52,700 nt of DNA, from NCBI RefSeq assembly GCF_018860705.1, contig NZ_JAHKQA010000016.1, forward strand, positions 1-52,700, in the 5' to 3' direction. Source of the stretch: Citreicella sp. C3M06 (GTDB lineage Bacteria; Pseudomonadota; Alphaproteobacteria; Rhodobacterales; Rhodobacteraceae). Every line of letters begins with the position of its first letter. Position 1 is the first letter of the stretch. A model generated the notes under the pieces. It was not told the DNA's origin. It searched no databases and worked only from the letters and a program-made list of their open reading frames with translations. Positions 5,237 through 52,700 of the stretch are shown piece after piece. Position numbers and translations under genes: made by a program.

Positions 5237-6373
5237 TTAGTCGGGGCAGGCCAGCGTGGCCACGGCTTCGGCAAAGGCGGCGACATCGCCGCGCGGGGCA
5301 CTGGCGCGCGCGCCCGTGGCAAGCCGCGCGCAGAGCGCTTCGTCGGCGTCCAGCAGCGTCATGTATCCTGCAAGGCTTTCGGCGCTGTCATGGGGAAAGC
5401 TGAAGCCGGTCACCCAATCCTGCACCAGCATCTCGCGCGCGCCGCAGCGATCCGACAGCAGCACCGGCAGATCCAGCGCCTGCGCCTCGATCACCACATT
5501 GCCGAACTGTTCTTCGAGGCTGGGCAGGATCAGCGCGAGGCTGCTTGCGAGAATCCGGGAAATCTCGGCGGTCTGCACGAAGCCGTGAAAGATCACCGCA
5601 TCGACGATGCCCAGATCATCGGCCTGTTTTTTCAATGCCTGCTCAAGCGGGCCATTGCCGCACAGGTTCAGCAGGCGCTGCCCACCGGCTGCGCGATAGA
5701 GCGCGAAGGCCTCAAGCGCCATGGCGAGGTTCTTCTTGTCGACCAGCCGGGCGACGATGGTCCACGGCCTGTCGGCAAAGGTAGGGCGGGGCACATCCGC
5801 CGCCTGCGCGCGCATCCGGTCGATGGACAGGGTGTTGTAGGGGCTGGCAACGCGGCGCAGGCCGAGAAAGCGGAAATAATCGGTCGATCTCTCCTGCGTG
5901 CCGATGGCCCCGTAATAGGGGCGCAGAGCCAGACTTTTGAGCCATTCGCCGCGCGCGCGGCGCGGCTTGTCGTCAAATTTCGAACAGCCCATGGTAAACA
6001 CCCGCGCCCCGCACAGCCGCAGAACCACCGCCGTGGCCAGAACCTCGGGGCGTTCGTAATGGCACAGGAACCACTGTGCCCGGCGCAACCCCCAGGCCGC
6101 GCGCAGCAAACGCAGGGTGCGGCGCGCAAGGCCGGGGGCCTCGTCCATCGCGAACAGGGTGATCTTGTCAAAGCCCGGCCTGTCATCCCCGACCCAGTCA
6201 TAGGTGACGTCACGGTCGAACAACTCGATCCCGTGTACCTGCGCTGCGGGAAACCGCTGGGCCACGGCTTCCAGCCGGTCGGCGTGCATCGGGCCGAAAT
6301 TGTTCCACACAAAGACCAGCCGCGTCGGGTCTGCCTGTGTGCCGGGGGCAAGAAAAGACCTGCTATCTGTCAC
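5237..6373 (-). CDS. Glycosyltransferase family 4 (GT-B fold)
   Basis: A 378-residue glycosyltransferase, first gene of a minus-strand pair with the GT4 at 4034-5212. The C-terminal donor-binding half is clear: WTIVARLVDKKNLAMALEAF, then NLCGNGPLEQALK, then the E-x7-E motif in EEQFGNVVIEAQALDLPVLL. The N-terminal half (FVWNNFGPMHADRLEAV) resembles enzymes that scan a nucleotide-lipid acceptor. The open frame runs upstream to 6694, but the GTG at 6373 has AGGAGA seven bases before it and gives a protein of normal length, so I chose that start. Donor and acceptor sugars are unknown. It belongs to the same polysaccharide locus by position. Confidence 0.85.
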   Translation of the reverse strand: MTDSRSFLAPGTQADPTRLVFVWNNFGPMHADRLEAVAQRFPAAQVHGIELFDRDVTYDWVGDDRPGFDKITLFAMDEAPGLARRTLRLLRAAWGLRRAQWFLCHYERPEVLATAVVLRLCGARVFTMGCSKFDDKPRRARGEWLKSLALRPYYGAIGTQERSTDYFRFLGLRRVASPYNTLSIDRMRAQAADVPRPTFADRPWTIVARLVDKKNLAMALEAFALYRAAGGQRLLNLCGNGPLEQALKKQADDLGIVDAVIFHGFVQTAEISRILASSLALILPSLEEQFGNVVIEAQALDLPVLLSDRCGAREMLVQDWVTGFSFPHDSAESLAGYMTLLDADEALCARLATGARASAPRGDVAAFAEAVATLACPD

Positions 6374-6711
6374 GGGCGGTTCTCCTGCCGGGGGCGCATT
6401 GCGGCCTGTCTGTGGGTGCCGGTCATGCGCTCCGTTTACGCACAGTTTGCGCACCGGGGGCCAACGCGGCGGATCTTGGGCTATCGTTACGCTGATCGCG
6501 AGACCGGGTGCAACACGGGGTGCGGCTTGAGACGGCTGCAAAGCGGCGCAAATGTCGGGTCTGCCCGCAGGTGTTGCAGCAAGGCCGGAACCGCGCGCGG
6601 TGCCGAGCCGGTTTTTTAACGAAACAGAAGGATTCTTCAGCAACCGAACCGGGATGGCAGATGCGCCCGCCCGTGCCGGAGCAAAGTTGTTCACTGCCGG
6701 AGAAACAAGAG
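6374..6711. promoter_or_regulatory. Divergent intergenic region, 338 bp
   Basis: This stretch separates the minus-strand glycosyltransferase pair from the plus-strand spike-base-like gene, so both units should have promoters here. The far ends of open frames pass through it, but these lack ribosome binding sites and family features. A short T/A tract at about 6611-6618 precedes the small gene. I see no clear promoter with correctly spaced -35 and -10 boxes and no strong hairpin. Confidence 0.35.
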
Positions 6712-6972
6712 ATGTCAGACAAGTACAGCCAGTTCACGCATGGCCTCAACTCGCCGCCCTATGGTGGGTTCGATATCACGCCCAGCGACGCAACCGATCT
6801 GTCGACGGTCACCCGTGCCCTGAACGTCGGGGTATCCGGCGACGTTCACGTGACGCTGCTCGACGATAGCGAAGCGACGCTGTTCCTTCAGGCCGGGGGG
6901 ATCTTTCCGCTGCGCGTCAAGCGGGTGTGGGCGACGGGCACCAGTGCTGGCGCCCTTGTCGGGCTTTATTGA
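6712..6972 (+). CDS. Spike base-like protein (gene-transfer-agent Rcc01079-type family)
   Basis: A protein of 86 residues starting at the ATG at 6712, with GGAG about ten bases upstream. The central pattern ITPSDATDLSTVTRAL, then VGVSGDVHVTL, then FPLRVKRVWATGTSA fits the small beta-rich spike base proteins found in gene transfer agents and phages of Rhodobacterales (RCAP_rcc01079 family). In the gene transfer agent this protein anchors spikes to the particle. Here no capsid, portal or tail gene is nearby. Instead it is followed by a coupled 40-residue ORF and a tailspike-like beta-helix protein inside an exopolysaccharide locus. There is no signal peptide. Family membership is recognised from memory of conserved residues, not from a search. 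Its role outside a particle is unknown; it may be a scaffold for the beta-helix protein. Confidence 0.72.
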   Translation: MSDKYSQFTHGLNSPPYGGFDITPSDATDLSTVTRALNVGVSGDVHVTLLDDSEATLFLQAGGIFPLRVKRVWATGTSAGALVGLY

Positions 6973-7094
6973 TGCTCGGCCTCGGGCTTTTGTTCTCGGG
7001 GTCGCAGCCGATCGTCGTCTCTGCATCGGGGGGGACGACGATCTCGCTGCTGCATGCCGACGACCTCATCACGGCAGATACCATCTTTGTATAG
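6972..7094 (+). CDS. 40-residue ORF translationally coupled to the spike-base-like gene
   Basis: An ATG overlaps the stop of the previous gene (TGATG), and the frame runs 40 codons to a TAG at 7092. The peptide starts MLGLGLLFSGSQP, contains the beta-type repeat-like segment SASGGTTISLLHADD and ends ITADTIFV. The overlap argues for translation by coupling. The peptide has no family I recognise. Its alternating small and branched residues suggest a beta strand pair rather than a membrane anchor. It could complete the spike base fold or be a short linker protein between the spike base and the beta-helix protein at 7176. It could also be a chance frame, since it is short. Confidence 0.45.
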   Translation: MLGLGLLFSGSQPIVVSASGGTTISLLHADDLITADTIFV

Positions 7095-7175
7095 GTCGAG
7101 CGGCCCCGCGTTGGGCCTCCCCCCGGAACCGGGTGACGAGCACGACCTGAGTCCATTCTACCGGAGACATGCTAC

Positions 7176-9152
7176 ATGGCACTCGTAATCCCTTCGCTTC
7201 CGATGACCGGAAGCCGGTTGAAAACCACCCTTGAGGAGATCCGGCAACGTATGCCGGTCAAGCTGGCCTCGACCAGCGAGATGAGCGCATTGTCCGGCTT
7301 CGTCGATGGCGACCGATGCCTGACGCCCCAAGGCGTTTACGAGATCTTCTCGGGGGTGTCCGCTGCCCCCAGCGCGACGGTCGTGAGCATGACGCAAGAC
7401 GGGATGCTGGCGATGCTCGCGGCGGACAGCCCGGTTCCGGATGTCGACACGCTGATAAGCGACACCCGCCCGCCAGAGTTTTTCACGGCGGGGATGCGCC
7501 TGATGACCCAGGCCGAAACCTATGTCTATCGCGTTGCCGCCAGCGATGCGAGCGATCACCACGTGACCACCGCCGGGGGGGCGAAACTGTACGTCGAACC
7601 GGGCCCGCGCGGCTTCGACGTTCGCGCCTTTGGCGCGCAGGGCGACAGCGTGACCGATGACAGCGCCGCGATCAGAACCGCCTTTCGCGCGGCCGTGTCC
7701 AGCAAACAGGCACCGACCATCGGCAGCAACGAGATCGTCCAGCACGCGGTGTTCTTGCCCGGCGGGCAATATCTGGTGAACAGTCCGCGCAGCCTGATGG
7801 ACACGCTGGGCGTGGGCCGCGCGATGGGGCTGACCTATGAAGGCGACGCCACCGGCACCACCATTCATTTCGGCCACGATGGCGAAGACTATCTTTGCTA
7901 CAATCCCAATGAGTTCCTCTTTGTGCGGTTCCGAAACCTGCGGTTCACCGCCAGCAGCGACACTGCGCGGTTCATGTTCGTAAACGCCAGCGGCGGCGCT
8001 CAGGATGTCCTGTTCGAGAACTGTAACTGGAACGGCACCTGGCAGAAGTTGTACCGTCTGGAAGGTGGCAACAACAATTCCGAATGGCGCTGGTCGAATT
8101 GCGCGATCACCGCGACCATTCGCGACACCGTTCTGGACATTCCCAGCGAAGGGTCGGACCAGTTTCTCAACTACTGGGCCACCAACTGCAAATTCTGGCT
8201 GTACGACGGCCAGTTCCTGCGGGCCCGCAAGGGCGGACATTTCCATTTCGTCAATTGCGACTGGTCCGGGCTGGCCCCCGGCATGACGCAGAACCAGTCG
8301 AGCAGAGGCGCGCCGCTGTTCGAGCTGCTGGGCGATGATCATGCGCGCGGCGTGTGTAGCTTTACCGTCACCGGCGGACGGGTGGAGCACAAGAATGTCG
8401 CCTCCAAGCTCATCTACTGCGAATGGAATTACGGCACCGTCGCGTTCCGTGATCTGGATTGCGGCGCGGTCACACCCAGCGGGTACGACACCGTCATCAA
8501 TACCCATTTCAGTTGCGGCAATACCCAGGGGCCGACCGTTCTGTTCGAAGGGTGCGATCTGATCGGCACTCATGTCTATTCGAACGGCACCGGGGCGTAT
8601 GTCTATGAACACAATGCCGCCTATCGGATGTGTACGATCCGGCAAAACAGCCCGGATGATTTCCTGACCTTCAACCGCACGACGAACGTTGGTGGCAGCT
8701 GGCTGGTCGAACTTGATCGCTGTCGGTCGGCCACCCCCAGCAGCTCCACCTCGTTGGTGGTCTGGGATGTGGTGCTTGGCTCACGCCTTGCCAAGAACGG
8801 CCATTTCGGCAAACGGTCTTTCGTGTTCCGCGATGTGACCGGGCGCGGCACCCCGCTGACCACCGGAACCTTTACCGCGCAGCTTCCGGCGCGGGCGGTG
8901 ATCACCCGTGTGGCCTTTCGCAACTCGGGCCTGCTGAGCAGCATCAATACCGTAAACTTCCGGCTCGAGGACGGCGCTGGTACGCTGATTGCGCAAAGTG
9001 GCGATCATCCACTGAACTCTGTGCTGAACATCGATCTGCCGGTCAGCTTTCTCGTGCCCTTGGGAAATGAAACGCTGGTGCTGCGTGACGCCAACGGCGT
9101 TGCCAACCAACAGGGCACCTCGATCTTCGTAGAGGTGGAATTCATCGTCTGA
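7176..9152 (+). CDS. Tailspike-like right-handed beta-helix protein (pectate-lyase-3 type fold)
   Basis: A 658-residue protein with ATG at 7176 and GGAGA eight bases upstream. Residues 1-140 form a non-helical N-terminal part without signal peptide, as in phage tailspikes. Then comes the classic entry to a beta-helix, GFDVRAFGAQGDSVTDDSAAI (about 146-166), followed by repeated coils to about 555. A beta-sandwich-like C-terminal domain follows (about 560-658). The core segments GNNNSEW (298-304), LNYWATNCKFW (331-341), RKGGHFHFVNCDWSG (351-365) and ELLGDDHARGVC (383-394) recur in the exported paralogue at 15024-16757. Such proteins bind or cut polysaccharide. The gene follows the spike base and 40-residue genes by 81 bases. 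The lack of a signal peptide leaves the export route open. The fold is well supported; enzymatic activity is a guess. Confidence 0.8.
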   Translation: MALVIPSLPMTGSRLKTTLEEIRQRMPVKLASTSEMSALSGFVDGDRCLTPQGVYEIFSGVSAAPSATVVSMTQDGMLAMLAADSPVPDVDTLISDTRPPEFFTAGMRLMTQAETYVYRVAASDASDHHVTTAGGAKLYVEPGPRGFDVRAFGAQGDSVTDDSAAIRTAFRAAVSSKQAPTIGSNEIVQHAVFLPGGQYLVNSPRSLMDTLGVGRAMGLTYEGDATGTTIHFGHDGEDYLCYNPNEFLFVRFRNLRFTASSDTARFMFVNASGGAQDVLFENCNWNGTWQKLYRLEGGNNNSEWRWSNCAITATIRDTVLDIPSEGSDQFLNYWATNCKFWLYDGQFLRARKGGHFHFVNCDWSGLAPGMTQNQSSRGAPLFELLGDDHARGVCSFTVTGGRVEHKNVASKLIYCEWNYGTVAFRDLDCGAVTPSGYDTVINTHFSCGNTQGPTVLFEGCDLIGTHVYSNGTGAYVYEHNAAYRMCTIRQNSPDDFLTFNRTTNVGGSWLVELDRCRSATPSSSTSLVVWDVVLGSRLAKNGHFGKRSFVFRDVTGRGTPLTTGTFTAQLPARAVITRVAFRNSGLLSSINTVNFRLEDGAGTLIAQSGDHPLNSVLNIDLPVSFLVPLGNETLVLRDANGVANQQGTSIFVEVEFIV

Positions 9153-9220: not shown

Positions 9221-9784
9221 ATGGCGACATATCAGGATCTTGGGCTGTTCCGGGTGCCGGCGGGATTCCGCGGGCGCTCGGGCCTTTACGTCCAACTGTG
9301 GTGGATTGTCCAAGCGGTGCTGATCGGGCTGTCGCCGCAGCCGCTGCATGGCTGGCGCGCCATGGTGCTGCGGGCGTTTGGCGCGCGCGTGGGGCGGGGG
9401 GTCAAGATCCGCCCGTCGGCGCGCATCACCTATCCCTGGCGGGTGACCATCGGAGACAATGTCTGGATTGGCGATCGGGCCGAGCTGTATTCTCTGGCCG
9501 AGATCGACATCGGTGACAACGCCTGCGTGTCGCAGGATTGCTATGTCTGCACCGGCTCGCACGATCACCGGCAGATCGATTTTCGCTATGATTGCCGCCC
9601 TGTCCGCATCGGGGCCGAAAGCTGGCTGGCCGCGGGCTGTTTCGTCGGGCCGGGGGTCAGCATCGGGGAGGGCGCGGTGATCGGTGCGCGCTCGTTGATC
9701 CTGCGCGACGTGCCGCCGGCACGGATCTGCGCCGGTAACCCGCTGCGGGATCTCGGGCCGCGCGCCGCCGCTGTCAGCGACTGA
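9221..9784 (+). CDS. WcaF-type colanic acid/exopolysaccharide O-acetyltransferase
   Basis: A cytoplasmic acetyltransferase of 187 residues with a left-handed beta-helix of hexapeptide repeats. The N-terminal WcaF-like segment WWIVQAVLIGLSPQP is followed by repeats such as VTIGDNVWIGDRAELYSLAEIDIGDN (split here as overlapping turns), the loop CTGSHDH with the likely catalytic histidine, and the tail DVPPARICAGNPLRDLG. The enzyme would use acetyl-CoA to acetylate a sugar of the repeat unit. The ATG at 9221 with GGGGAG just upstream is better than the in-frame alternatives starting at 9167. The gene ends convergently with the next glycosyltransferase, overlapping it by 11 bases. Confidence 0.87.
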   Translation: MATYQDLGLFRVPAGFRGRSGLYVQLWWIVQAVLIGLSPQPLHGWRAMVLRAFGARVGRGVKIRPSARITYPWRVTIGDNVWIGDRAELYSLAEIDIGDNACVSQDCYVCTGSHDHRQIDFRYDCRPVRIGAESWLAAGCFVGPGVSIGEGAVIGARSLILRDVPPARICAGNPLRDLGPRAAAVSD

Positions 9785-15023: not shown

Positions 15024-16757
15024 TCATGCGCGATAATGCAAAAGGCACATGCCCGGAAAGGTTGCGCCCGGTTCGGGGCGCAACGCCACTGGCGTGCCGT
15101 CCGACACCGGCAGCGGTCGGCCCGGCACGGGGGTCACATCGTGGCCAGCGGACCACAGCCGCAGGCCGGGCACCGGGGTCATGGTCGCGGGGTCGACCAG
15201 CGCCTCGATCCGGGCGCCTTTGGGCAGGCGCTGCGCGCTGCCGTCAGCGGGCAGCAGCGCCTGATGGCTTTCGATGCGGCAGGCCCCTCCCAGCAGCGCG
15301 CCGAGGTTGCAATCCCACAGGCCGCGGTCGCGCCGCGCCGTGCCGCGGCAGTCGCGAAAGATCATGTCGGGGATGCGCCGCGGCGCCTTGGAACCGTCAT
15401 AGATCACCACCTCGTCGGGGCCAGCGCCATGAAAGAAGCTGCAGCGGGTAAAGGCGATCAGCGCCTGATCCGACCCCTTCTGGCCGTGGTTGTCCACCCG
15501 CAGCTGCCCGGCGAATTGCGAGTCCGACACCGACAGGATCGGCCCGCGCCCTTCGCCAAGGATCAGCTCGATCACCGGGGCGGCGGGGGTCATGCGGTAG
15601 GTCTGCGAGGACAGATCAAGCCCGGAGATGTCGATGGTGCCAGATGGCCATTCCGAGCGCAGCAGCAGCGCCTGCTCGGTTTTCAGCTCGACCCGAAGGT
15701 TGCGGATGCTGCAGGCACAGACGCCGCGCGCATGATTGTCGCCCAGCAGCTCGACCAGATAATTGGCGGCCTTGGGCGCATAACCCGACACGTCGCAATC
15801 CGAGATATGCAGATGCCCGCCCTTGTGCAGCCGGGCAATGGTCACCCAGCCCCAGAGCTTGCAGTTGCGGAACCAGTAATTCAGATTCTGATCGGACGAG
15901 CGGCCCAGCAACAGCGTAAACGGGTCGAGATAGACCGCGCTGTGCACCCGATCGAACAGGAATTCGGAATTGTTGTTGCCAGCGGCGCCGGTCTCAGGGT
16001 CGGGCACCATTTCGATGCCAATGCCCCAGCGGCCGCGAAAGGCGATGTCAATGAACTGGTGATCCTGCGAAATACCGCTGCCATAGCAGCGGGCAAACAC
16101 CGCCCCCGGCACATCGGTGTAAAGCGTCAGCCGGGCAAGGCGCAGCCCCAGCACCGAATTGTTGTTCCAGAGCAAGGGTTCAGAGGCATCTACGGGGTCA
16201 TAGACCAGCACGGTCGATTGCTGTCCTGCACCGCTGATGCGCAGACCGTCGTGGCGGCCCGCCAGATCGCGGGCCAGCAGCGCGCCGGGTCGGGTGACCC
16301 GCATCATCCCCGGGGGCAGCACCAGTTCGGCATGGTTTGTCATGGCCCGGATCACCGCGCGCGTCAGCGCCTCGGAGATATCTGGCGCGCTGGCCGGATC
16401 GGGCCCACCGCGGGCAGGCGACAGCGGCGCGATCCCCCACGACGCCAAAAGAATGCGCCCGTCGGATGGCAGCACCCGCAGCTTCTGATTCAGCGCGTCT
16501 CCGGGCAGGGGCAGGTCGTGATCCGTCGCTTCGGGCGGCAGCAGCGCGTAGCGGCTGCCATCCATCAGCGCAAAGCAATCCCCCGGCGCCAAGCCCAGAT
16601 CCGCCAGACGGGCCGCAAGATCGGGCGTCTGCCGCAGCTCGTTTGCGGTTTGCGGAGGCGGGGTGTCAGACAGCGCCTCCCGGCTGGCCTGTTGCGCCGC
16701 GCCGCCATGGCCCAGCGGCAGCAGCACCCCCCCCAGAAGCAGGTTGCGCCGCTTCAT
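15024..16757 (-). CDS. Exported right-handed beta-helix protein, paralogue of the tailspike-like protein
   Basis: A 577-residue protein beginning MKRRNLLLGGVLLPLG, a twin-arginine-like export signal with probable cleavage after residue 20 or so. Beta-helix coils fill about 140-480. Its core matches the protein at 7176-9152: GNNNSEF (260-266), LNYWFRNCKLW (292-302), HKGGHLHISDCDVSG (311-325) and ELLGDNHARGVC (336-347). It lacks the N-terminal tailspike part and the typical GFDVRAFGA entry. The ATG at 16757 overlaps the stop of the polymerase gene as ATGA, so it is coupled to it. Probable role: binding or trimming the exopolysaccharide in the periplasm or outside. No catalytic residues can be assigned. 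Confidence 0.78.
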   Translation of the reverse strand: MKRRNLLLGGVLLPLGHGGAAQQASREALSDTPPPQTANELRQTPDLAARLADLGLAPGDCFALMDGSRYALLPPEATDHDLPLPGDALNQKLRVLPSDGRILLASWGIAPLSPARGGPDPASAPDISEALTRAVIRAMTNHAELVLPPGMMRVTRPGALLARDLAGRHDGLRISGAGQQSTVLVYDPVDASEPLLWNNNSVLGLRLARLTLYTDVPGAVFARCYGSGISQDHQFIDIAFRGRWGIGIEMVPDPETGAAGNNNSEFLFDRVHSAVYLDPFTLLLGRSSDQNLNYWFRNCKLWGWVTIARLHKGGHLHISDCDVSGYAPKAANYLVELLGDNHARGVCACSIRNLRVELKTEQALLLRSEWPSGTIDISGLDLSSQTYRMTPAAPVIELILGEGRGPILSVSDSQFAGQLRVDNHGQKGSDQALIAFTRCSFFHGAGPDEVVIYDGSKAPRRIPDMIFRDCRGTARRDRGLWDCNLGALLGGACRIESHQALLPADGSAQRLPKGARIEALVDPATMTPVPGLRLWSAGHDVTPVPGRPLPVSDGTPVALRPEPGATFPGMCLLHYRA

Positions 16758-44462: not shown

Positions 44463-46061
44463 GTGCCCAGCTCTGCCACCACCTTCGGGGCCCTGCCCGC
44501 CCGAGGCCTCAACCCTGCCGGGCTTGCCACCTTTGCCTTGCTTGTCATCGCGTCGCTGCCGGTGTTCTGGCTGGGCTTTCAATCGCTGGCCTCGGCCTGG
44601 TCGACGCCGGAATACAGCCACGGGCCGCTGATCCCGCTGATCTCGCTCTACCTGTTCCTGCGCGAATTGCGCCACGCGCCGCCGCGTGATGCGGCGGCGC
44701 CGGTGACACGCTGGCCGGGGCTTGTGGTGATCGCGCTGGGGCTGGGCATCGGCATTCTCGGCAATCTGGTGCGCATCCCCGACGTGGTGACCTATGGCTT
44801 CATCCTCTGGGTGGGCGGACTGGTGCTGACGGTGATGGGCTGGCAGCGCGGGCGCAAACACCAGCTGCCGGTGCTGCATCTGGTGTTCATGCTGCCGCTG
44901 CCGCAGTTCCTCTACTGGCACATGACCATCGCGTTGCAGCTGATCAGCTCTGAACTGGGGGTGTGGTTCATTCGCCTTGCCCAGATCCCGGTGTTCCTTG
45001 AGGGCAACGTGATCGACCTTGGGGTCTACAAGCTGCAGGTGGCCGAGGCGTGTTCCGGGCTGCGCTACCTGTTCCCGATCCTGAGCTTCAGCTACCTGAC
45101 GGCAATCCTGTATCGCGGCCCGTTCTGGCACAAGGCGCTGCTGTTCCTCACGGCGGCGCCGCTGACGGTGTTCATGAACGCCTTTCGCATCGGGGTGATC
45201 GGCATTCTGGTCAATCATTTCGGCATCGCACAGGCCGAAGGCTTCCTTCATGTCTTTGAGGGCTGGGTGATCTTTGGCGCCTGCGTGGCGCTGCTGTTCC
45301 TGCTGGCGGTGATCCTGCAACACACCACGCGCAACCCCAAGACGCTGGCCGACACCATCGATCTGGATTTCGACGGGCTTGGCGGAGAGGCCGCCCGCGT
45401 GCTGCGCATCCCGCTGAGCAAGGGGCTGGTGGCGGCAACGCTGCTGTCGGTGGCCATCGCGGGCAGCTGGCTGCTGGCCCCCACCCCCGAGCGCGAGCGC
45501 ATCGTGCGGGAAAACTTTGTCCATTTCCCCCGCGCCATCGGGGATTGGCAGGGGCTGTTCTCGTCGCTCGATCAGGAAACGCGCGATGTGCTCAAGGCCT
45601 CTGATTACATCAACGTCACCTATTCGTCGCCAGACGTGGCGCAGCCGGTGAATTTCTTCGCCGCCTATTATACCACCCAGACCGAAGGCGCGGGCATCCA
45701 TTCCCCCGAGGTCTGCCTGCCGGTCGGCGGCTGGGAGATGTTCTCTCTGGACACGGTGCCGGTGAGCATGCCGGACACCCCCTATGGCGATTTCATGGTC
45801 AACCGCGCGGTGATCCAGAAGGGGCTGACGAAACAGATGGTCTATTACTGGTTCGAACAGCGCGGCCAGCGGATGACCAATGATTACGCGGTCAAGGCCA
45901 GCGTGGTCTGGGACGGGCTGACACGCGGGCGGGCCGATGGCGCGCTGGTGCGGTTTGTCACCCCCATGGCCCGCGGCGAGTCCGACGCCTCGGCCGAGGC
46001 CCGCCTGCAGGGCTTCATGGCCGAGCTGCTGCCGGGCTTGCCGCGCTACATCCCCGAATGA
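44463..46061 (+). CDS. xrtD: Exosortase, VPLPA-CTERM-specific (XrtD type), fused to EpsI domain
   Basis: A 532-residue membrane protease/transpeptidase that should cut the VPLPA-CTERM signal. The N-terminal part (about 20-290) has eight or so helices with the catalytic residues Cys197 in [13 protein letters not shown], Arg242 in MNAFRIGVI and His263 in LHVFEGWV. The C-terminal part (about 340-525) is an EpsI domain with [16 protein letters not shown] (Cys418). The fusion of exosortase with EpsI is the XrtD arrangement. The GTG at 44463 has AGAGG seven bases upstream and is preferred to the longer frame. A likely substrate is on the same plasmid at 35432. It is followed by a rhomboid gene with a one-base gap. 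Confidence 0.88.
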
Positions 46062-52518: not shown

Positions 52519-52700
52519 ATGAAGATCGCCGTTGCCGGCCTGGGCTACGTGGGCCTGTCGAATGCCGTGCTGCTTGCGCAGAACAACGAGGTCACCGCCG
52601 TCGATGTCTCGCAAGAGCGGGTCGACATGGTGAATGCGGGCAAATGCCCGATCGTCGACGCCGAGCTCGAAGAGTTCCTCGCAGAGCGCAAGCTGACGCT
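52519..52700 (+). CDS. ugd: UDP-glucose 6-dehydrogenase, N-terminal part (3' end cut by window edge)
   Basis: About 60 residues, MKIAVAGLGYVGLSNAVLLA onward, giving the Rossmann NAD-binding start of the enzyme. GAGGAA lies nine bases upstream of the ATG at 52519. The frame is open to the last base. The missing middle part of about 96 residues would connect it to the piece at 1-699. The start is 126 bp after the repA stop with a small hairpin (CCGCC/GGCGG near 52451-52469) between, so a promoter for the polysaccharide operon may lie in that short gap. Confidence 0.93.
   Translation, partial: MKIAVAGLGYVGLSNAVLLAQNNEVTAVDVSQERVDMVNAGKCPIVDAELEEFLAERKLT

Follow-up and report, generated by a model that had tools for sequence, protein, structure and literature searches.

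The 52,700-nucleotide contig NZ_JAHKQA010000016.1 of Citreicella sp. C3M06 (hereafter the window, meaning the whole stretch of DNA that was analysed) carries an exopolysaccharide locus in which three consecutive genes encode a small base protein, a 40-residue peptide and a tailspike-type protein. With a probability of about 0.74, we regard this module as the head-spike locus of the host's own gene transfer agent (GTA), a particle resembling that of Rhodobacter capsulatus (RcGTA). It is thus most likely a GTA's unlinked head-spike locus, as in R. capsulatus, and not a free-standing capsule enzyme. Judged by sequence, this reading draws on the family of the base protein, the Leu/Gly-rich start of the peptide, the tailspike homology, the GTA cluster elsewhere in the genome and the position among polysaccharide genes; from these we infer particle assembly, the contact between anchor and spike, the identity of the polymer and catalysis. 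The module consists of:

6712 to 6972, plus strand: head-spike base protein, 86 residues, Rcc01079/GhsA family (NF048002, PDB 6tb9, PHROG 12296)
6972 to 7094, plus strand: putative detached anchor ('star') peptide, 40 residues (start MLGLGLLF; orthologues that are likewise separate open reading frames)
7176 to 9152, plus strand: tailspike-type receptor-binding protein, 658 residues (PF12708; relatives in phage phiGT1 and in a viral-contig tailspike)

The base protein and its coupled reading frame

The original prediction for this stretch had taken the 86-residue product for a spike base protein, and profile searches agreed with it. Its match to NF048002 spike_base, the RCAP_Rcc01079 family, spans the full model (E = 1.1e-29; 102.5 bits, where the cut-off is 28). 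The protein also matches PHROG 12296, and in the PDB it matches the RcGTA head spike base Rcc01079 (6tb9, E = 1.1e-9) and, more weakly, 8cjz, 'Spike Base Protein' (E = 0.004). It is the sole spike base found in the host genome, and its ratio of nonsynonymous to synonymous differences per site (pN/pS) against Salipiger aestuarii is 0.26. The known place of the RcGTA base protein is on the capsid pentamers (PMC7296036).

The predicted coupling of a 40-residue open reading frame (ORF) to the base gene was confirmed, since the ORF overlaps the stop codon of that gene (TGATG) and has orthologues at the same place in two further species, S. aestuarii (82% identity) and Pacificoceanicola onchidii (41%). 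It found no family match in three profile libraries. Its start, MLGLGLLF, resembles in a by-eye comparison the Leu/Gly 'star' peptide by which the RcGTA head fibre is anchored in its base (PMC7296036), and by sequence we read it as a putative detached anchor peptide. Star peptide and fibre are not one polypeptide here: the ORF ends at 7094 and the next start lies at 7176, a split that recurs in L195 and L196. The ORF stops after 38-40 residues in S. aestuarii and P. onchidii as it does in the window, and the tailspike ORF starts 80-95 bases further on. A recent frameshift that split one fibre gene was rejected because the split is kept in three species, and the CGGAG-type sequences that precede the spike start in the window and in P. 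onchidii were also counted against it.

A loose Leu/Gly-start pattern was present in 65 of 127 spike loci, counted where the start codon falls at most a few bases from the stop of the base gene. In 57 of these 65 loci the ORF so opened has 185-1385 residues; a few entries appear implausible on inspection.

The tailspike-type protein

The 658-residue protein can be divided into about 145 N-terminal residues that form a putative attachment part, a pectate-lyase-like core and a C-terminal part that appears strand-rich in poor models. Its only Pfam match is PF12708 (Pect-lyase_RHGA_epim) over residues 148-286 (E = 5e-9), and its PHROG matches to tail and tailspike families are weak (best 6e-4). 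A full-length relative in P. onchidii (62% identity) supports the start at 7176, and the first 301 codons have a pN/pS of 0.14 against S. aestuarii. Chance ORFs were rejected in view of the conserved relatives and of the low pN/pS of base and spike.

A 38-kb viral contig, IMGVR_UViG_2615840712_000001, encodes a 611-residue tailspike with a different N-terminal part; residues 60-610 of this tailspike align with residues 113-657 of the window spike at 61% identity. The tail spike of Sulfitobacter phage phiGT1 is 34% identical to the window spike over residues 29-173 of the latter, with no match reported over the rest. By sequence, then, the N-terminal and receptor-binding parts have separate relatives, as is usual in tailspikes. 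On the viral contig, which we presume from its isolate-genome name to be a prophage, the tailspike is followed by small ORFs and an Amidase_2 endolysin and preceded by three genes with no Pfam match and one that matches a DUF; no spike base was present in the 9.3 kb examined around it. Scans of viral contigs with the spike and with this viral relative matched this one contig and no more.

The protein had originally been described as a tailspike-like beta-helix protein. The tailspike part of that description stands, whereas 'beta-helix' is predicted from family matches and homologues, AlphaFold models from three and then four sequences being too poor to use (mean predicted local distance difference test scores 34 and 40). 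Polysaccharide cleavage is likewise a prediction, for which conserved polar residues can be seen in the alignment.

Proteins similar to the N-terminal part of the window spike also occur in other genomes with a spike base. Locus L087 (genome G233) has a similar coupled ORF of 35 residues, and 23 kb away on the same contig lies a protein that matches residues 1-189 of the window spike with 33% identity. In genome G282 such a protein is on the same contig as the spike base, and in G084 on a different one. The co-occurrence in L087 and G282, which is co-occurrence only, fits a pairing of the N-terminal part with a detached anchor.

A gene transfer agent cluster elsewhere in the genome

The host was assigned to the Salipiger group (genus in the broad sense), and its draft genome of 5.0 Mb comprises 106 contigs, of which the window is C59. 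A strong match to GTA_TIM (E = 2.6e-149) was found on a separate contig, C89. It sits in a colinear gene run (C89:479-15031) that resembles the RcGTA cluster, with GTA_TIM being the only gene tested by profile and the remaining genes being what we take them to be by name. Among 20 Salipiger genomes, 19 had GTA_TIM and seven a spike base. A sample of 394 genomes from the family contained a spike base in 139 and GTA_TIM in 346, and spike bases were more frequent in GTA_TIM-positive genomes (133 of 346) than in GTA_TIM-negative ones (6 of 48; Fisher p = 3e-4, uncorrected for phylogeny and completeness).

The head-spike genes of R. capsulatus lie apart from the main GTA cluster (PMC8601537) and adjoin capsule genes (PMC10218006). 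A part of a GTA particle is the simplest reading of the module because the GTA cluster lies elsewhere in the genome, the module holds the sole spike base, and the R. capsulatus genes are likewise unlinked and capsule-adjacent.

In the mechanism that we propose, five 86-residue base proteins would assemble into a pentamer at the fivefold vertices of the particle's head. The Leu/Gly N-terminus of the 40-residue peptide would plug into this base like the N-terminus of the RcGTA fibre, and its C-terminal part would recruit the separate 658-residue tailspike via the N-terminal part of the latter. The tailspike core would bind, and probably cut or trim, surface polysaccharide, with the particles attaching to and crossing the recipient's coat. 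With the module inside an exopolysaccharide locus on a RepA plasmid, the spike is probably inherited together with the polymer that it recognises.

The module is embedded in an exopolysaccharide locus

NCBIfam and Pfam scans of the window identified glycosyltransferases, a polysaccharide transporter, a pyruvyltransferase, an O-antigen-ligase-type protein, an exosortase and an acetyltransferase in this locus. Two GT4 glycosyltransferases, a WcaF-type acetyltransferase, the transporter and the pyruvyltransferase flank the module, which lies between:

5237 to 6388, minus strand: GT4 glycosyltransferase (PF00534; relative at the same position in P. onchidii)
9221 to 9784, plus strand: WcaF-type O-acetyltransferase (NF007797, E = 2.6e-74; relative at the same position in P. 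onchidii)

P. onchidii is colinear with the window in the order GT4, base, anchor, tailspike, acetyltransferase, GT4, transporter and pyruvyltransferase, and S. aestuarii has the same gene order and neighbours, interrupted by a contig end. The idea of a particle-type spike module in an exopolysaccharide locus is upheld, and no prophage was seen around the module.

Spike bases lie near polysaccharide genes across the family

The linkage of spike-base genes to polysaccharide genes recurs across the family. Besides the window we collected 126 spike neighbourhoods, six from Salipiger and 120 among the family matches listed, mostly the best-scoring ones, with some genomes giving two. Polysaccharide profiles were grown from window proteins, for which reason the window was excluded from the linkage counts, and the dehydrogenase and epimerase profiles were excluded as well. 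Matches were counted in six frames, where a split gene may count twice, and only 'at least one' counts were used. Twenty of the genomes sampled each contributed one control region, taken from a contig longer than 260 kb. Within 5 kb, at least one polysaccharide match was present for 79 of 126 spike neighbourhoods, compared with 1 of 20 controls; within 8 kb the counts were 88 of 126 and 2 of 20. An earlier count, based on a gene caller adapted to GC-rich DNA that overlooked genes at some loci, had given 73 of 127 versus 1 of 20 within 5 kb. For the 44 loci without a polysaccharide match in that earlier count, Pfam was searched with 113 of 161 flanking proteins; these represent 42 of the loci, L015 and L086 being excluded. 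The 25 commonest of the 138 families found were sugar-nucleotide and housekeeping families, and no phage structural family was among these 25.

The proteins encoded behind the bases are diverse. In 111 of 128 loci an ORF of 170 residues or more lies downstream of the base (some are possibly spurious frames). The three largest groups of these ORFs have 18, 17 and 5 members, three groups have three and six have two, and all other ORFs stand alone. At L240, L241, L244 and L248, the genes right behind the base are annotated as sialate O-acetylesterase (two Thioclava and Limimaricola) or SGNH/GDSL hydrolase (Cereibacter). Spikes may carry polymer-modifying esterases.

A literature search found no statement of a general linkage between spikes and polysaccharide genes; Hynes et al. 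2016 and Westbye et al. 2016 lay outside this search, and parts of the linkage are possibly in print.

Of the alternatives to a matched spike, the strongest accepts a GTA head spike and takes its placement to be passive, in that spike and polysaccharide loci would both collect on plasmids and variable islands with no matching between them. Exopolysaccharide plasmids do occur in roseobacters, and a spike base was found in 27 plasmid records. Sixteen of these were examined and one was unannotated; of the 15 annotated plasmids, 12 agreed with the linkage in having the spike base among polysaccharide genes, one was phage-plasmid-like and two were neither, in a count without a plasmid control. Passive placement is also consistent with the 38 of 127 loci that have no polysaccharide match within 8 kb, and with the small share of homologous fibre pairs (20 of 137) that have a neighbour of at least 50% identity in common. 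Against this, non-homologous pairs shared such a neighbour less often still (237 of 5953), in counts that exclude within-Salipiger pairs, are uncorrected for phylogeny and consist of pairs that are not independent. Linkage was present on contigs of 3.0-4.3 Mb as well (L103, L105, L135 and L145), the spike core has a paralogue inside the same locus, and in R. capsulatus the head spike reportedly interacts with the capsule whose genes lie beside its own (PMC10218006). We therefore consider passive placement possible, yet unlikely.

A promoter-like element upstream of spike bases

Upstream of the base gene in the window lies:

6570 to 6619, plus strand: promoter-like element, GGTGTTGCA-N13-CGCGCGCGG at 6570-6600, followed by TTAA at 6616-6619 (relatives upstream of some spike bases)

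TTAA is the core of the CtrA site. It was present within 150 nt upstream of 58 of 127 spike bases versus 174 of 825 other upstream regions of the same loci (p = 1.4e-8), while AATT, TATA and ATAT were not enriched upstream of spike bases and CTAA and TTAG slightly so. Inspection of the whole set showed a second element, GGYGTTGCG-N13/14-GCGYRCGG, upstream of part of the spike bases. A model of this element was trained on random halves of the loci, starting from the window's site; the window and L016 were excluded, and the spacing range was chosen on the whole set. Over ten splits, 5 to 17 of 63 held-out loci exceeded the 99th percentile of the controls, where about 0.6 were expected. With the full model, 33 of 127 loci passed this percentile, among which TTAA followed within 60 nt downstream in 10 and at 12-15 nt in 9, while CTA[GAT] was seen 11 times at 28-31 nt from the element. 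The head-spike genes of R. capsulatus belong to the late GTA genes and are switched on by CtrA and GafA; their promoter contains putative CtrA half-sites (PMC9638019).

A paralogue of the spike core in the same locus

The exopolysaccharide locus encodes a second protein with the core of the spike:

15024 to 16757, minus strand: paralogue of the spike core, 577 residues, with a signal-like N-terminus (BLASTP)

BLASTP aligned the 577-residue product with the 658-residue spike at 27% identity over 404 residues (E = 2e-31), and its start, MKRRNLLLGGVLLPLGHGGAAQQ, looks signal-like by eye. As a query, the spike matched 7 of the 394 family genomes, and its second match in its own genome was this protein. 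A further relative, from Cupriavidus metallidurans CH34, is 34% identical over spike residues 148-585 and also has an export-like start; its neighbours are genes for a mannose-1-phosphate guanylyltransferase/isomerase-type protein, two tyrosine-kinase-type proteins, Poly_export, GT87 and GT4. An alignment of the spike, the viral tailspike and both secreted-looking proteins shows that N-x-NSE, SDQ-x-LNYW, GGH, CD-x-SG, H-x-x-GVC, R-x-E-x-K and EW are kept across all four. The spike core thus appears to belong to a family that polysaccharide loci themselves use, and because they do so, the shared core suggests a common substrate.

The secreted-looking proteins encoded at 15024-16757 of the window and at 8860-10470 of L187 have a conserved core to which no Pfam model matched, and the two lie in polysaccharide loci of an alpha- and a betaproteobacterium. 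The idea that the 577-residue paralogue is a constant companion of the spike was dropped, as 20 kb of P. onchidii sequence shows no relative besides the spike itself.

The original prediction had suggested that the cell may have adopted the module to bind or trim its own polymer or to protect it from phage. In this alternative, base, anchor and tailspike would be released or exported, and would act on the cell's exopolysaccharide by trimming or cross-linking it or by shielding it against phage. The position inside the locus would suit such a role, the secreted-looking paralogue on the plasmid indicates that cells use this domain family too, and so does the Cupriavidus relative with its export-like start and polysaccharide neighbours. 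However, the base protein has its known role on capsid pentamers (PMC7296036), no signal peptide is evident by eye, judged without a predictor, at the start of the 658-residue protein, and spike bases co-occur with GTA_TIM and in many cases have TTAA upstream. Given also the GTA cluster on another contig, the lack of a second spike base and the R. capsulatus precedent, adoption by the cell is less supported than the original prediction had it, and we judge it improbable; a side role for the cell is conceivable.

Points against a GTA head spike and the phage alternative

Several observations weigh against the module being a GTA head spike. GTA_TIM is missing from seven spike-positive genomes, namely Salipiger G009 and six of the family sample, and a GTA capsid match is missing from six of these: five of the six family genomes have no capsid match (one of them is only 77% complete) and G132 has capsid pieces, while G009 has neither match and carries its spike (L015) beside phage tail genes. 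The control regions of the linkage counts are few (20) and all come from contigs over 260 kb. The 40-residue ORF, with a pN/pS of 0.41 against S. aestuarii (over 31 synonymous sites) and of 0.78 against P. onchidii, is under weak to moderate constraint; it is 41% identical between genera, and we encountered no structural precedent for a split between anchor and spike. The promoter-like element failed as a genome-wide marker of GTA genes, with 21 matches in its own genome versus 22 for the reversed pattern and 32 versus 33 in the 20 Salipiger genomes, where 2 of the 32 lie at spike bases; in these scans it was not tied to other GTA genes. Finally, spike bases also occur in phages (37 records), so that the family alone does not mean a GTA, and phage genes lie near the bacterial spike bases L069, L015, L083 and L073.

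A tentative rule that GTA-negative genomes keep their spikes only away from polysaccharide genes was dropped, with polysaccharide matches at L109 and L126 and none at L079, L143 and L015.

The occurrence of spike bases in phages and near phage genes would suit a module that belongs to a phage, or is the remnant of a prophage that landed in the locus, and serves no GTA, as would the spike base on a Tritonibacter plasmid and the core that the spike has in common with the viral-contig tailspike. The original prediction had already remarked on the absence of capsid, tail and lysis genes nearby. This was borne out, as none of the capsid, tail-machine and lysis families was found among the scanned window proteins, which cover part of the window ORFs, and profiles seeded from the GTA cluster had no match in the window. 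In the other neighbourhoods, the GTA-seeded profiles, which may miss unrelated phages, found phage-like genes in 1 of 127 spike loci, and PHROGs and Pfam scans of ten and six large flanking proteins, respectively, from loci without a polysaccharide match added three more phage-associated loci. Moreover, base, anchor and spike keep the same polysaccharide flanks in P. onchidii, and base and spike are under purifying selection. We hence regard a phage remnant, like adoption by the cell, as improbable, and an intact prophage was rejected as no phage genes were seen nearby.

The Tritonibacter plasmid (T. mobilis p5, 41 kb; L242) encodes phage tail and lysozyme genes besides an unannotated spike base and is likely a phage-plasmid. 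Relatives of the spike base in phages reach Flavobacterium, Verrucomicrobia, Edwardsiella and Pseudanabaena phages, far outside the alphaproteobacteria.

Relation to known systems and possible meaning

The probable GTA head-spike locus in the window shares with the RcGTA head spike (GhsA/GhsB, Rcc01079/Rcc01080) the base family, a Leu/Gly-rich anchor start and a position outside the main GTA cluster and beside capsule or exopolysaccharide genes. It differs in that anchor peptide and receptor-binding protein are separate ORFs, that the latter is a 658-residue tailspike-type protein instead of a 325-residue fibre, and that the locus lies on a contig with a RepA-type plasmid initiator. TspA (Rcc02623), a detachable tailspike of RcGTA that acts on biofilm polysaccharide, is another likeness to the window protein; as far as the two can be compared by description, TspA attaches to the baseplate and its gene lies beside lysS, whereas the window protein is encoded behind a head-spike base (PMC13420450). 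The module is best read as a new form of the arrangement known from R. capsulatus, a GTA head-spike locus beside polysaccharide genes. Here it lies on a plasmid, the anchor is split off, and the receptor-binding protein is of the tailspike type and has a paralogue of its core in the locus. New as well is the family-wide nearness of spike bases to polysaccharide genes; part of the spike bases share the promoter-like element.

These data suggest that a polysaccharide locus can carry a spike matched to its own polymer. We tentatively extend this, at somewhat less than even odds, to a more general proposal: Rhodobacterales polysaccharide loci would carry a co-inherited GTA receptor-binding spike matched to their own polymer, giving a greenbeard-like self-recognition in gene exchange. 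If so, GTA particles would deliver DNA mainly to cells with the same coat, and transfer of the locus, here by plasmid, would move the particle's target along. The receptor-binding domain could come from the same family as the locus's own secreted polymer enzyme, and the spike could be built in trans from a base, a 40-residue adaptor peptide and an exchangeable tailspike.

How GTAs choose recipients and why cells keep GTAs are open questions on which the linkage may bear. If it is general, as the neighbourhood counts suggest, a genetic linkage of key and lock would bias GTA exchange towards cells with the same coat. The argument that explains GTAs by kin selection would be directly affected, and a cell that acquires a coat plasmid would be predicted to exchange genes with other partners. 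The linkage would also yield a ready test set of spikes, each lying beside genes for its probable ligand.

The window contig

The window contig encodes a RepA-type replication initiator (PF10134) and a gene that we take to be ParA-like. Positions 1-699 and 52519-52698 hold what appear to be the C-terminal and N-terminal parts of one nucleotide-sugar dehydrogenase gene, and since this gene is split over both ends, the contig probably represents a circular plasmid of about 53 kb that is almost closed. At 44463-46061 the window encodes an exosortase EpsH with DUF3485, and exosortases are also present on other spike-bearing plasmids (Alloyangia, Rhodovulum sp. P5).

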